A DNA stretch of 64,000 bases from Arcobacteraceae bacterium (lineage in GTDB: Bacteria > Campylobacterota > Campylobacteria > Campylobacterales > Arcobacteraceae), in assembly GCA_021107755.1 (NCBI GenBank), contig JAIOSF010000021.1, forward strand, positions 62,001 through 126,000, read 5' to 3'. Positions 23,419 to 41,553 of this stretch are shown here, one piece after another. A program made the translations under genes and the position numbers. The notes beneath the pieces are model-generated. The model saw only the letters and a list, made by a program, of their open reading frames with translations, was not told the origin of the DNA and made no database searches. How positions within the stretch are numbered: the first letter of the stretch is position 1; every line of letters starts with the position of its first letter.

Positions 23419-24376
23419 TTTTACAAAAGAGTTTCAAAAAGCTTATAAGTTAATAAATGAGAGTCATTATATTTTAATAGTTACACATATTAATCCTGAT
23501 GCAGATACTTTATCGTCAGCGTTAGCTTTGAGTAATTATATGTATAGAAATAATATCAATCATAAAGTATACAATAGTAGTAAGTATCTACCTAGAAATT
23601 TAGATTTTCTACCACGATTTGATAAAATTACCGATACAGTACCTAAAAGTTATGATCTTATTATTTATGTAGATTGTGGTGATAAAAGAAGAGTTGGTTT
23701 TGAGTTTAATTATACTTGTAAAGTTATTAATATAGATCATCACCAATCCAATGATAATTATGGAGATATAAATATTGTTGATTCCGATAAAGGAAGTACC
23801 GCTGAACTATTATTTGGTTTTTTCAAGAATAATGAGATAAAAATAACAAAAGAGATAGCCACTTGTTTATATATTGGTATTTATGATGATAGTATTGCTT
23901 TTACTACCCCTAGAACTAATAGTAAAACTTTTGAAGTGATTAATACTCTAGTTACAACTAATATAGAAATACCAAAAATATTAGAATCTTATTTAATGAG
24001 GGAGACGCTTGCAAAATATAGACTACTTCCTAAAATTTTACAAACATTAGAGTTATATTTTGAAGGTGATATCGCAATTATATATCAAAAACAAGAGTGG
24101 CTAGATATTACAGGAGCTACTTTTAATGAGTGTGATGAAGTAGTTAATGAGATATTAAAAATAGCGATAGTAAAAATAGCTATTTATTTACGCGAAGATA
24201 ACAATAATATAAGAATATCTTTACGAGGGAAAGATGATATTAAAATAGATTTATCCAAAGTTGCAAATACACTCAATGGTGGTGGTCACAAAAATGCAGC
24301 AGGAGCTACACTCTCAGGTGTGAGTATCCAACAAGCTACTACGAGATTATTAGATACTTTCAAAAATTACATTTAG
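23411..24376 (+). CDS. DHH/DHHA1-family phosphoesterase (NrnA-like)
   Basis: The 321-residue protein has the DHH metal-binding motifs: THINPDADTLSSALAL, YVDCGDKRR, IDHHQSND and DDSIAFTTPRT, plus the C-terminal DHHA1 substrate motif GGGHKNAAGA. Such proteins act as oligoribonucleases, pAp phosphatases or cyclic-dinucleotide breakdown enzymes; which one cannot be told. Soluble, no membrane segment, unlike GdpP. Convergent with the next gene, with a 17-base overlap of coding ends. Confidence 0.9.
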   Translation: MSDFTKEFQKAYKLINESHYILIVTHINPDADTLSSALALSNYMYRNNINHKVYNSSKYLPRNLDFLPRFDKITDTVPKSYDLIIYVDCGDKRRVGFEFNYTCKVINIDHHQSNDNYGDINIVDSDKGSTAELLFGFFKNNEIKITKEIATCLYIGIYDDSIAFTTPRTNSKTFEVINTLVTTNIEIPKILESYLMRETLAKYRLLPKILQTLELYFEGDIAIIYQKQEWLDITGATFNECDEVVNEILKIAIVKIAIYLREDNNNIRISLRGKDDIKIDLSKVANTLNGGGHKNAAGATLSGVSIQQATTRLLDTFKNYI

Positions 24377-25811
24377 TATTAAATTCTTCTTGAGTTATAT
24401 TTGCTATAACTGTTTCAATATTTGTATTTGATTCTCTTATAAGGGTGTTTAATTTTATTTGTAACTCTTCATTTTCAAAAGGACCTATAAAAATTTGTGT
24501 TTTTCCATTATCGTTATTACATATTGAGATTCTAGCTTGCGTAGAATTTGTTTGTAATACTAATTCTTTAAATAATTTATATTTTAAACTATTTGCTAAA
24601 ACAAATTTTAATTTACTGTTATGTTCTATCATAGGACTATTTTTAACTTCAACAGATTGTACTTTATTCTCCTCTATAAGAGTAGGGGTGCTTACCTTTT
24701 CAGCAGGAGGTGTTTGTTGTTCTATTTTTTCTTGTGGTAGATTAGTTACAGGGATAGTTTCTTTTCCTTCTATTGCTAGAGGTTCTTCTTTATTCTGTTT
24801 TGCAAACTCTATAAGTAATTGTTCTTTTTTAAGTTGTATTATTCTTTGTTTTTCCTCTTGCGCCTGTGTCTCTAGTTCCTCTTGTGTAAGAATTTGATAT
24901 TTTGTTAGTAGTTCAAGTTTATTGTTGAGTCTTTGAATGTTAATATCACTCATTCTAAAATCAACTTTTTTTACAGCTTCATATTGAACTATATCTACAT
25001 TGTTTTTTATTTCTTCTGTACTATTTGTATCTTTTGGTTTTTCTATAGGCGCTGAATCAAAAATACCTAGCATATACATAACAATAGCAACTATTATAGT
25101 AGTTGCTATAAGGGCAGAAACTGTTATAATAATCATTTTAAATTTCTTATTTTTTATATTTTCATCAGGTTCCTCTGTAGAGGTTTCTTCTATAGGAGCT
25201 TCTGTTTTTGCATCTACCGTTTCTTTCTCTTCCTCTATCTCTTCTTCGGTCTCTTCTTGAATCTCTTCTTCTGGATAAAAAGTAGGTTCAGTTTGTGTAA
25301 GTTCTGTTATGAATTCGTTAAAGTTTTCTTCAAATTTTGTAAATAGTACAGACTCTACACCATCAATATCTATTAAGAATCTATATGTATTTTCAATTGA
25401 CTCTATACTATTACCGTCTAGTATTTCTTTATGTTTAATATTAAACTTTGATTTTCCAAGATCTTCAAATTGAATAGAATTAATTTCAGTTACTAATCCT
25501 CCACAGGTATTTGATATGAATTCTGCCATAGCATCAGCTGTATCATCATCTATTTTAGTTAATACATCAGCATCAGGTGCTGCCATCATTATATTAAATA
25601 TTCTTGATGCACTTTGTGCAGGGATATAGTATGATAGAATTGAGGTTAATTTATCAAAAACAAACTCTACATCTATTCTTAATAGTTCACTATTTTCAAA
25701 GTCTCTTAGGTCTGTTTTTGTACACTCTACAAGTTTAGTATCTTTTGCTAAGAGTGCACCAAGTGTAATAGATAGATTTTCTGGTATTAGTTTTGATAAA
25801 TCTGAAGCCAT
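24360..25811 (-). CDS. CheC/FliY-like domain fused to a membrane segment and periplasmic SPOR-like end (novel architecture)
   Basis: Residues 1-165 align with the N-terminal CheC-like half of FliY encoded at 40690: both start MASD, share the IP-A-A stretch, IDD-T-DA--E-IS, G--VT--N---F-D and KF-I/L blocks. A Glu/Thr-rich linker (170-220), one strong membrane helix (226-251), a Glu/Gln-rich coiled region, and a C-terminal segment (about 395-483) with ARISICNNDNGKTQIFIGPF that looks like a SPOR repeat follow. The domain order implies the CheC-like part in the cytoplasm, near the motor, and the end in the periplasm. Third gene of the flgG minus operon; one-base overlap with the gene before it. 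Function unknown. Confidence 0.8.
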   Translation of the reverse strand: MASDLSKLIPENLSITLGALLAKDTKLVECTKTDLRDFENSELLRIDVEFVFDKLTSILSYYIPAQSASRIFNIMMAAPDADVLTKIDDDTADAMAEFISNTCGGLVTEINSIQFEDLGKSKFNIKHKEILDGNSIESIENTYRFLIDIDGVESVLFTKFEENFNEFITELTQTEPTFYPEEEIQEETEEEIEEEKETVDAKTEAPIEETSTEEPDENIKNKKFKMIIITVSALIATTIIVAIVMYMLGIFDSAPIEKPKDTNSTEEIKNNVDIVQYEAVKKVDFRMSDINIQRLNNKLELLTKYQILTQEELETQAQEEKQRIIQLKKEQLLIEFAKQNKEEPLAIEGKETIPVTNLPQEKIEQQTPPAEKVSTPTLIEENKVQSVEVKNSPMIEHNSKLKFVLANSLKYKLFKELVLQTNSTQARISICNNDNGKTQIFIGPFENEELQIKLNTLIRESNTNIETVIANITQEEFNTKCNF

Positions 25812-26248
25812 TATTTATTTTCCATTTTATTTTTTAGTCTATTTTGTTTCTGTTGTTCTAATATCTTTTCTTTGTTTTTTCGATAATATTCTTTTCTATA
25901 TTCTCTTAGTTTTTCTTTTTGTTTATCTCTATACTCTTTGTCATACTCTAACCTTGTTTCTTTATTTTGATTATAGTATTTCTGCTTTTTATTTTTATAC
26001 TCATCAATTTTATTTTTAATAATCTCTTCTCTTGACTGTACATGCAGTTTTTGCTTTTTTGCAATCTCTTTTAGTTTGTCTGCAAAGTTTCCACCAAAAA
26101 GTTCAACCTCATAATCAATAGATTGAACTTTTTTTGCTACAGTTGCCTGTTTTTTTTGCATTTTAGATTTAAGGTAATAGGCTCTTTTTTTTCTTTTATG
26201 TTCTAAAAGCTTCTCTTCTCTAATCTTCTTTAATTCTTTTAAATCCAT
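25811..26248 (-). CDS. Highly charged Lys/Glu/Tyr-rich helical protein (unknown)
   Basis: Not recognised. The 145-residue protein is almost all Lys, Glu, Arg, Gln, Asn and Tyr. The C-terminal 65 residues repeat patterns like KQKYYNQNKE, EYDKEYRDKQKEK and EYRKEYYRKNKEK with a period of about 12. A less charged FGGNFADKLKE segment lies near residue 70. It is probably one long helix or coiled coil. It lies between flgG and the CheC-TM-SPOR gene, so a flagellar partner role is inferred. Size and coil recall FliJ, but sequence and position do not support that. Confidence 0.7.
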   Translation of the reverse strand: MDLKELKKIREEKLLEHKRKKRAYYLKSKMQKKQATVAKKVQSIDYEVELFGGNFADKLKEIAKKQKLHVQSREEIIKNKIDEYKNKKQKYYNQNKETRLEYDKEYRDKQKEKLREYRKEYYRKNKEKILEQQKQNRLKNKMENK

Positions 26249-26273: not shown

Positions 26274-27062
26274 TTATCTTTTTAACTGGTTTACTGTTTG
26301 AAGCATAGTGTCTGTGGTTGTAATTGCTTTTGAGTTTGCTTCATATCCTCTTTGTGCTGTAATTAAGTTTACCATCTCTGTTACAAGCTGTACATTTGAA
26401 CCCTCAAGCATCCCTTGTCTAATTGTTCCCATACCATTTAGCCCAGGTGTTTCATCTATAGGATCTCCTGAAGTGTCAGTTGCTAAATACAAGCTATCAC
26501 CTTGAGGAGCTAATCCTGCTGGGTTTATAAAGTTTACTAAAGTAATTTGTCCAAGAACTTGTTGCTCTCCAGTTGCTGGATCAATTGCTGATACAGTGCC
26601 ATCTTGTGCTACAGAAACATTTATGAGGTCATCAGGTATTACAATTTCAGGTTCAGTTAGGTAGCCTAAACCATTTACTAAACTTCCTTCATTATTTAAT
26701 TTAAAAGAACCATTTCTTGTATAAGCAGTTTCCCCATTAGGTGTAGTTATTTGAAAGAAACCATTTCCTTGAATAGCCATATCATAAGTATTTCCAGTTT
26801 GTAGTAAACTACCTTGGATAAAGTTTTTCTGAATACCTGCAACTCTAACTCCTAGACCTGTATCAATTCCAGTTGGATTATTTGTATCGGCACTTGTTGC
26901 ACCAGCAGTATAATTTAGTGACTGATACATGAGATCTTGAAACTCTGTTCTATCCTGCTTAAATGCCGTTGTATTAACATTTGCAATGTTGTTTGAGATA
27001 ACATCAATATCTTGTTGTTGTGCAACCATTCCAGCAGCTGCTGTGTGAAGTCCTCTAATCAT
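26274..27062 (-). CDS. flgG: FlgG, flagellar distal rod protein
   Basis: Axial protein of the distal rod. The 262-residue protein has the standard N-terminal MIRGLHTAAAGMVAQQ and ISNNIANVNTTAFK motifs, the central AIQGNGFFQI and YTRNGSF blocks and the C-terminal EMVNLITAQRGYEANSKAI helix, with length exactly that of FlgG. It starts the minus-strand operon opposite cheY, across a 135-base spacer that must hold both promoters. Confidence 0.96.
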   Translation of the reverse strand: MIRGLHTAAAGMVAQQQDIDVISNNIANVNTTAFKQDRTEFQDLMYQSLNYTAGATSADTNNPTGIDTGLGVRVAGIQKNFIQGSLLQTGNTYDMAIQGNGFFQITTPNGETAYTRNGSFKLNNEGSLVNGLGYLTEPEIVIPDDLINVSVAQDGTVSAIDPATGEQQVLGQITLVNFINPAGLAPQGDSLYLATDTSGDPIDETPGLNGMGTIRQGMLEGSNVQLVTEMVNLITAQRGYEANSKAITTTDTMLQTVNQLKR

Positions 27063-27197: not shown

Positions 27198-27566
27198 ATG
27201 CGTATATTAATTGTAGACGATAGTTCAACTATGAGAAGAATAATTGGAAATGTTGTTCAACAACTAGGTGTTTCAAAAGAAGATTTTGATGAAGCCGAAG
27301 ATGGTGTTGTGGCATGGAAACTTTTTCAAGAAAAAAACAATTATGATGTTGTTCTTACAGATTGGAATATGCCTAATATGAATGGACTAGATTTAGTGAA
27401 GCATATACGAACAGCTGACAAAAAAGTACCTATAGTTATGATTACAACTGAAGGTGGTAAAGGTGAGGTTATTACTGCTTTAAAAGCAGGGGTTAATAAT
27501 TATATAGTAAAGCCGTTTAGTGCAGATATATTAAAAGAAAAGCTAGACGGACTAGTTAAGGGATAA
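27198..27566 (+). CDS. cheY: CheY chemotaxis response regulator
   Basis: Single receiver domain of 122 residues with all active-site parts: acidic pair in VDDSS, phospho-acceptor Asp in LTDWNMPNMNG, Thr/Thr in MITTEGG and Lys in YIVKPF. The DWNMPNMNG stretch is typical of true CheY. Phospho-CheY binds the motor switch. The CheZ-like gene follows after three bases. Confidence 0.96.
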   Translation: MRILIVDDSSTMRRIIGNVVQQLGVSKEDFDEAEDGVVAWKLFQEKNNYDVVLTDWNMPNMNGLDLVKHIRTADKKVPIVMITTEGGKGEVITALKAGVNNYIVKPFSADILKEKLDGLVKG

Positions 27567-27569
27567 CCT

Positions 27570-28451
27570 ATGAGTATGAGTCAAGAAGAGATTGAGGCAC
27601 TAATGAGCGGTGCTGAATCTACGGAAGCAGATGAAACCGAAGAAGTATCAGTTGATGCGCAGCCAGATGAAACTACTCAAGATGTTCAAGAAGAGCAACA
27701 AGAAGATGTTCAAGGTGATGATGTAACGGCTGAGACAGAAGAAAGTACAACTAATACCTCAGAAAGTGAAGATGATATTGATAATATAGATGATATGTTA
27801 GCTGGAATAGATGGTATAGTTGATGATGGCAGTGATATAGAGGAAGGACTTGATACTAACTTAGAGCAAAAAGAGACAAAAAAAGATCAATCAATGGAAG
27901 AGTTAATTGATTCCAATCAATATCCTATGCCTGTAAAACACGAAAATAAAGTTGTAAATCAACTTAATGAAGTTGCCGATGATAGTGAAGAAAAAGCTTC
28001 TCAAATTTTTGATGTATTAAGTTTTATTCTTGATGAAAATAATGAAATTCAAAACTATAATAAAAATATGGGTGAATTTATTGATACGCAAGTATTATTA
28101 TTAGATGCTTTAGCTAAAAAATTTCCTAATATAGATGTATTTAGTCAGAATTTAGAAACAGCGAAAACTCTTGTAGAAGATTCAAAAAGTTTATCATCTA
28201 AAATTGATGGGGAAAATAATAAAGTTTTTGAAGCGATGGAATTGATGCAATACCATGATATTAATCGTCAAAAAATAGAAAGAGTTATGGCAGTAATTAG
28301 AAAGTTGAATAGTTACCTAAATGGTATTTTTGAAGATGATAATGAGAAACCAGAGGTACAAATAGCAAAACATATTTCAGGTGATTCTAATGATATAGTT
28401 GGAGCTGATGATATTGATTCATTAATAGCTGAATTTTCAGAAGAAGGATAA
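27570..28451 (+). CDS. cheZ: CheZ-like CheY-P phosphatase with FliM-like N-terminal peptide
   Basis: A long helical domain (135-250) contains LMQYHDINRQKIERVM, whose D230-x-x-x-Q234 matches the catalytic Asp and Gln of CheZ. The N-terminus, SQEEIEALMSG (4-14), resembles the CheY-P-binding peptide at the start of FliM (SQDEIDALL). Residues 15-110 are an acidic, disordered linker. The C-terminal GADDIDSLIAEF resembles the CheY-binding tail of CheZ. So the protein may grip CheY-P at both ends. It belongs to the divergent CheZ group known from Helicobacter. Directly after cheY, before flgF. Confidence 0.82.
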   Translation: MSMSQEEIEALMSGAESTEADETEEVSVDAQPDETTQDVQEEQQEDVQGDDVTAETEESTTNTSESEDDIDNIDDMLAGIDGIVDDGSDIEEGLDTNLEQKETKKDQSMEELIDSNQYPMPVKHENKVVNQLNEVADDSEEKASQIFDVLSFILDENNEIQNYNKNMGEFIDTQVLLLDALAKKFPNIDVFSQNLETAKTLVEDSKSLSSKIDGENNKVFEAMELMQYHDINRQKIERVMAVIRKLNSYLNGIFEDDNEKPEVQIAKHISGDSNDIVGADDIDSLIAEFSEEG

Positions 28452-40689: not shown

Positions 40690-41553
40690 TTGGCATCAGA
40701 TATATCAAATATAATAAAAAGTGAAATTGCAACAACTCTTGAAAGTTTACTTTCACTAACTAGTCATGTTGAAAGTGTATCACTTTTAAGTGAAGATGAA
40801 TTAAAAGGTAGCCAATGTATAAAAGTTAATACTACTTTTGAATTTGGTTCAAAAAGTTCACAATGGAATTTTTTTATACCTAGTGCTACAGCAACACAGT
40901 TTGAATACTTAATGCTAGGTGGCGTGACAGATTTAAAAGAAGCTATAGATGATGAGATTACAGATGCTGTTAAAGAGATAATATCAACAATATCAGGAAG
41001 TGTTGTAACAAGTGTGAATGCACAAGGATTTGATGATATTAGTGGTGTGAAATTTACATTAGGTGATAGTTCTGTAGTGAGTTGTGATGATATAGATAAC
41101 AGACAGCAAAGCTATAAATTTGTTTTTAAATTAAATGAAGATAGTTTTGAACTAATTATTGAATTTGATTCAAATATTATTGGTTTTTTATCTTCAATAT
41201 CTGGTAAAGAAAAAGAGGGTGATTCTCAAAATAGTAGTGGTGCTGTTACTTCTAAAGAAGTGACTGGTGCAGGTTCAATTTTAAATTCACTATTAGGTGA
41301 AGAATCAGTTGATAATTTACGATTGTTGTTTGATATCAAAATGAAACTCAGTGTTCGATTAGGAACAAAAGTATGTCTTTTAAGAGATGTAATTAGTTGG
41401 GATATTGGAGAAATAATTGAATTAAGCCAAATGACAAATGAACCTTTAGATATACTAGTAAATGGTGTTATTATAGGAAAAGGTGAAGCTGTTATTGTTG
41501 ATGGAAAATTTGGTGTAAAGATAAAATCAATAGGTGTAAAGAAGATTAATTAA
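40690..41553 (+). CDS. fliY: FliY, motor switch protein (CheC-like plus SpoA domain)
   Basis: 287 residues: N-terminal CheC/FliM-middle-like domain (1-175, with ALIDDEITDAVKEIIS-type helix) and C-terminal SpoA domain (210-280, LLFDIKMKLSVRLGTKV, GEIIELSQMTNEPLDILVNG). This is the FliY layout of Helicobacter, a C-ring part that may also act on CheY-P. The N-terminal half is paralogous to the protein at 24360. TTG start, with TTAGGG upstream. Confidence 0.9.
   Translation: MASDISNIIKSEIATTLESLLSLTSHVESVSLLSEDELKGSQCIKVNTTFEFGSKSSQWNFFIPSATATQFEYLMLGGVTDLKEAIDDEITDAVKEIISTISGSVVTSVNAQGFDDISGVKFTLGDSSVVSCDDIDNRQQSYKFVFKLNEDSFELIIEFDSNIIGFLSSISGKEKEGDSQNSSGAVTSKEVTGAGSILNSLLGEESVDNLRLLFDIKMKLSVRLGTKVCLLRDVISWDIGEIIELSQMTNEPLDILVNGVIIGKGEAVIVDGKFGVKIKSIGVKKIN

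Follow-up and report, generated by a model that had tools for sequence, protein, structure and literature searches.

A membrane-anchored protein with CheC/FliY-like and SPOR-like domains, encoded with flgG in Arcobacteraceae, is a candidate accessory part of the polar flagellar motor

In the window, the whole 64,000-nucleotide stretch of Arcobacteraceae DNA analysed here, a gene at 24360-25811 on the minus strand encodes a protein of 483 amino acids that combines, from its N- to its C-terminus, a CheC/FliY-like domain, an acidic linker, a transmembrane (TM) helix, a periplasmic stalk, and a SPOR-like domain (Table 1). The open reading frame (ORF) starts with ATG and overlaps by one base with the stop codon of the preceding gene, called gene X here. 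Both the ORF and the domain layout are confirmed as real and beyond chance, because orthologues occur throughout the Arcobacteraceae at one conserved locus. The anatomy proposed in an earlier note on this DNA, a CheC/FliY-like half joined through a membrane anchor to a SPOR-like end, is borne out by BLASTP, hydropathy, structure models, and profiles. The domain arrangement is new, and the protein represents an accessory family for which no description was found. No such protein is named in the portions of the literature on Campylobacterota motors that were open to a search by term (PMC12222027, PMC11870540, PMC9321776, PMC5758724), and within that scope the earlier remark that no named protein has this layout holds. 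Judged from the aligned motifs, the residues that do the textbook job of each domain are absent from both the CheC/FliY-like and the SPOR-like part. We regard it as an even call that the protein is an Arcobacteraceae-specific accessory component of the polar flagellar motor, whose long form would link the C-ring side with a part of the motor in the periplasm.

Table 1. Features of the gene, its neighbours, and fliY in the window.
Feature	Coordinates	Strand	Basis
Whole gene, 483 aa	24360..25811	-	ORF call; orthologues at one conserved locus
CheC/CheX/FliM-fold domain, residues 1-172, FliY N-domain paralogue; ExxS for ExxN, without GGXG loop	25296..25811	-	BLASTP, model, motif checks
Acidic cytoplasmic linker, residues 173-226, KNKKFK at end	25134..25295	-	
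Transmembrane helix, residues 227-249	25065..25133	-	hydropathy; aligned in all orthologues
Periplasmic stalk, residues 250-395, low complexity	24627..25064	-	
Juxtamembrane periplasmic motif FxxxxINxxRLNxxLxxLT, residues 285-303	24903..24959	-	30 orthologues
SPOR-like domain, residues 396-483, invariant Cys431, Cys481, Gly443-Pro444	24363..24626	-	model, profile, invariants
Gene X, 145 aa, charged, no known family	25811..26248	-	stop overlaps start of the 24360-25811 gene by 1 base
flgG, distal rod protein, first gene of trio	26274..27062	-	TIGR02488 E 2e-103; synteny
cheY, divergent from trio	27198..27566	+	NF007901 E 1.6e-33
cheZ, FliM-type EIDAL-like N-terminal peptide	27570..28451	+	NF041271 E 1.2e-33
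fliY, CheC-like half and FliN domain; N-domain paralogue	40690..41553	+	

Hydropathy analysis reveals one clear TM segment at about residues 227-249 (peak 2.75 at 226-227). The N-terminus is predicted to be cytoplasmic because the KNKKFK stretch flanks this helix, and hydropathy together with the positive-inside rule shows a predicted single-pass topology with the N-terminus inside and the C-terminus outside. The stalk falls outside the SPOR-like domain and contains one conserved motif, in which F285, N296, and L302 are invariant and I290, L299, and T303 nearly so among 30 orthologues; this motif is common to the long and the short forms of the protein, which are described below. NCBIfam gives a FliL match below threshold (E 0.0013; 18.5 bits, cut-off 179); it was taken to reflect the TM helix and its charged flanks only, and identity with FliL was rejected.

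The model of the C-terminal domain (residues ~394-483, pLDDT 89) shows a beta-alpha-beta-beta-alpha-beta arrangement plus an extra helix. It matches the SPOR domain of RlpA (6i05) with Z 7.1 and rmsd 2.2 over 65 residues, a score tied by other ferredoxin-like folds, and placement of the modelled domain by fold search alone is not possible. PII-like proteins were the top Foldseek matches, but they share the common ferredoxin-like arrangement and kinship with them was rejected. A family profile run against 399 genomes of the Campylobacterales matched 13 genomes outside the Arcobacteraceae, weakly (E 4e-7 to 1e-3). All eight of the non-Arcobacteraceae proteins scanned are SPOR proteins according to Pfam; a ninth scanned match, a weak one from the Arcobacteraceae genome G038, proved to be a secretin. 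The Pfam SPOR model itself (PF05036) detected only one of 30 family members (E 0.024) and none above its cut-off. With hhalign, the domain scored 96.9% against the SPOR segments of the profile matches, which had been picked by the profile itself, and 2.6% against two SPOR domains of its own genome, a value obtained with a thin alignment. The predicted fold and the reach of the profile to SPOR proteins support the SPOR-like end described earlier, and the Pfam scores stay below the cut-off; we call the domain SPOR-like and regard it as probably derived from SPOR. Like FtsN, DedD, RlpA, and RgsS, the protein has an extended stalk, a C-terminal domain of predicted SPOR topology, and remote profile similarity. 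Unlike these SPOR proteins, it stays below the Pfam threshold, has lost the glycan contacts, is encoded in a flagellar operon, and carries an additional C-terminal helix that bears an invariant cysteine.

In RlpA, denuded glycan is contacted by Gln270 and Arg309 (PMC6895207). The position of Gln270, in strand beta-1, is occupied by Leu in the window protein and that of Arg309 by Gln. The latter position is basic in none of 30 orthologues, as compared to 11 of 11 Campylobacterales SPOR domains. Because both equivalents are lost, binding of denuded glycan would not be predicted, and the earlier suggestion that the periplasmic end could bind denuded peptidoglycan was not upheld. C431, C481, and G443-P444 are invariant in 30/30 orthologues, and the two cysteines suggest a protein-docking domain stabilised by a putative disulfide. 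The lost contacts also bear on a role as pole landmark, in which the SPOR-like domain would sit on denuded septal peptidoglycan, stay at the new pole, and nucleate the C-ring via the FliY-derived domain. A SPOR-like domain is present, SPOR-dependent marking of the new pole by RgsS is documented in Sinorhizobium (PMC7822825), and the plan of HubP/FimV, as far as the accessible part of the source describes it, also unites a wall-binding domain, a TM helix, and an acidic cytoplasmic region (PMC12918733). However, with Leu in place of the beta-1 Gln and the basic residue gone in all 30 orthologues, we consider such a landmark, conceived by analogy, rather improbable. The likeness to the HubP/FimV pole organisers (a wall-type periplasmic domain, one TM helix, an acidic cytoplasmic part) is one of analogy only: the topology is reversed and no homology was found. 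Pfam and NCBIfam detect neither a LysM nor a FimV domain in the 483-aa protein; in a FimV_core search of the genome, the controls gave no signal.

The flagellar context seen earlier is firm, as flgG, gene X, and the gene described here, which comes last, form a trio that is contiguous, tightly packed, and often overlapping at every intact locus read. The trio is divergent from cheY-cheZ-flgF-flgB, and the gene beyond it varies between genomes. In 200 genomes of the order, gene X turned up in the Arcobacteraceae only; its product is highly charged and belongs to no Pfam or NCBIfam family. In the neighbouring CheZ, the N-terminus is a FliM-type EIDAL-like peptide (MSMSQEEIEALM) that hardly varies among 16 CheZ proteins of the Arcobacteraceae; CheZ also has a C-terminal end of the CheY-binding type, so that one CheZ possibly carries two CheY- or motor-docking peptides. 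The place of the gene, third after flgG and X and closely packed with them at the intact loci read, would suit a rod-stage assembly factor that senses or stabilises completion of the FlgG rod and signals through its cytoplasmic end to the export apparatus or the C-ring. Operon position is all that speaks for this role, however, and no features typical of export or of chaperones were seen in the protein; we deem it unlikely.

The N-terminal domain was recognised earlier as a paralogue of the CheC-like half of FliY, and the window FliY indeed aligns with it at 25% identity over 175 aa (BLASTP, E 3e-19). A structure model built from 32 sequences (mean pLDDT 92.6) finds its best match in Thermotoga maritima FliY (4hyn; Z 15.2, rmsd 3.0 over 162 residues), in line with the structural kinship to CheC/FliY proposed before. 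CheX, CheC, and the middle domains of FliM follow, the lowest at Z 10.7, and other folds reach at most 3.5. Membership in the CheC superfamily is well established because FliY, FliM, CheX, and CheC score Z 10.7-15.2 as compared to 3.5 for the next fold. An origin from FliM was rejected, since BLAST with the FliM of the genome gives no match (E 3.6) and the FliM profile scores -1.6 bits versus 219.8 for FliY. Like Arcobacteraceae FliY, the protein begins with MASDLS and has the homologous CheC-like domain of the same fold. Unlike FliY, it has a TM helix and a periplasmic part in place of the FliN/SPOA domain, which Pfam does not find in the 483-aa protein (FliMN_C is detected in the window FliY), and it has lost the GGXG loop. 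The GG of this loop occurs in 0/11 paralogue domains versus 35 of 36 Arcobacteraceae FliYs and 7/12 outgroup FliYs. In FliM the GGXG loop contacts FliG (PMC4642947), and its loss argues against docking of the N-domain on FliG, as far as a motif can tell.

With the CheC/CheX phosphatases the domain shares the fold (Z 10.7-13.4), but the catalytic Asn is gone and the protein is membrane-anchored. The two positions of the CheC ExxN motif read E97-F-I-S and D4-L-S-K, and the second-site Asn is replaced by Ser, Thr, or Gly in all 11 paralogue N-domains. It is absent likewise from all FliYs compared, which agrees with the report that epsilonproteobacterial FliY has no phosphatase sites (PMC6946799). 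The earlier idea that the protein handles CheY-P, if taken as phosphatase activity, fails on this point. The CheC/CheX fold and the adjacent cheY-cheZ pair might still suggest that the protein, held at the membrane, binds or dephosphorylates CheY-P close to the motor and so tunes switching, yet with D4xxK7 and E97xxS100 in place of the motif, a CheZ present, and short forms that do without the domain, this appears very unlikely.

The gene is present in nearly all genomes of the Arcobacteraceae, so that its spread in the family, raised as a question before, is wide. A first scan of a genome collection with the single protein as query gave no match; a second, with an alignment as query, returned three Arcobacter-group contigs only. 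Across the family the gene tracks the flagellum: it was found in 88 of 93 genomes that encode FlhA, the remaining five being fragmented drafts. Among the genomes without FlhA, seven lack the gene and four keep it (G001, G049, G097, and G098), and all four keepers show flagellar decay at the locus. In G001, which is complete and flagella-less, transposase-like genes, named by eye, lie between X and the SPOR-like gene (L096:1275-7489). In G049, a truncated flgG adjoins a transposase-like gene, in G097 the SPOR-like gene is itself truncated, and in G098 fragments of flgG and flgF remain. The G001 locus, at which flgG, X, and cheY can still be read, represents a flagellar cluster midway through decay. 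A purely non-flagellar role, which the four keepers might have suggested, was rejected in view of the decay at each locus. The gene is tied to flagella because genomes without FlhA either lack it or keep it beside decaying remnants. A general cell-envelope or division protein with flagellar genes as mere neighbours, as PBP2 nearby in the window genome and the usual function of SPOR proteins in division might suggest, is highly improbable, because the neighbourhood with flgG and X is conserved and that with PBP2 is not, and because flagella-less genomes lack the gene or have it at a decaying locus.

The family comprises long and short forms. Long forms, which have the N-domain, are limited to three genera (g1, to which the window belongs, g8, and g9); a tree based on flgG, X, and cheY separates these three from the rest by a single split (support 99). 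All genomes read outside these genera have short forms, in which a mostly acidic tail of 32-212 aa replaces the N-domain. A hidden CheC-like domain in the short forms was rejected, as the N-domain profile gives no significant match. The N-domain cannot be the core function of the family because it is present in one clade only. The 11 paralogue N-domains are monophyletic (support 87 and 94), and their order, (g9,(g1,g8)), mirrors the FliY tree. When rooted with FliYs of other Campylobacterales, the paralogue clade is placed outside the Arcobacteraceae FliYs as a whole (support 96). Such a placement suggests that FliY was duplicated early and that most genera later lost the N-domain, a pattern that rapid evolution of the paralogue could mimic. 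In the short forms of one genus, g18 (L131:1911-3380, L132:2117-3661), the acidic cytoplasmic tail contains five to seven copies of (M/L)DEL(M/I). This motif occurs 15 times in all short-form tails, compared to 0.8 expected by shuffling; it resembles the EIDAL motif and is confined to few genera.

For the favoured role as an accessory motor protein, the following scheme can be outlined. The protein would be made from the trio with flgG and gene X and inserted as a single-pass inner-membrane protein. Its stalk and two-cysteine, SPOR-derived domain would most likely dock on the rod/MS-ring region or the PflA/PflB scaffold, not on denuded glycan; such protein docking is inferred because the cysteines are conserved and the glycan contacts lost. 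In the long form, the FliY-derived domain would most likely dock sideways on the C-ring (FliY/FliM), or may bind CheY without hydrolysis, and the long form would then couple the switch complex, across the membrane, to a periplasmic motor part. In the short forms, the acidic tail would serve in place of this domain. The loss of the glycan contacts removes a paradox, because a protein anchored in the wall that held on to a rotating ring would brake it permanently. Two points speak against a coupler. Simultaneous binding of the rotating C-ring and a static scaffold may not occur, because a link from rotor to static scaffold would brake the motor; alternatively, the protein might turn together with the rotor or be active during assembly only. 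Moreover, the function of the family does not require the FliY-derived domain, as the sequences of the short forms indicate. A bolder version, in which a switch domain duplicated from FliY sits on a membrane-spanning arm that takes hold of the motor from the periplasm, and the link from C-ring to envelope might serve as brake, clutch, or assembly ruler, is more tentative, and we put it forward only as a possibility.

As a lineage-specific accessory part of a complex polar motor, the protein would resemble PflA, PflB, PflC, PflD, FcpMNO, FlgV, FlgX, and FlgY, unlike which it has CheC-like and SPOR-like domains; none of those is described with either domain in the source portions available. According to likewise partial sources, Arcobacter lacks FlgPQ and FlgVWX (PMC9321776) and an Arcobacter-type motor has been imaged (PMC5758724). 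The list of motor parts of Arcobacter is incomplete, and the flgG-linked membrane protein and gene X are testable candidates for missing parts. The long and short forms offer a natural experiment. Should the long form indeed connect the C-ring with parts in the periplasm, it would represent a type of transmembrane link that the accessible portions of the literature do not describe.
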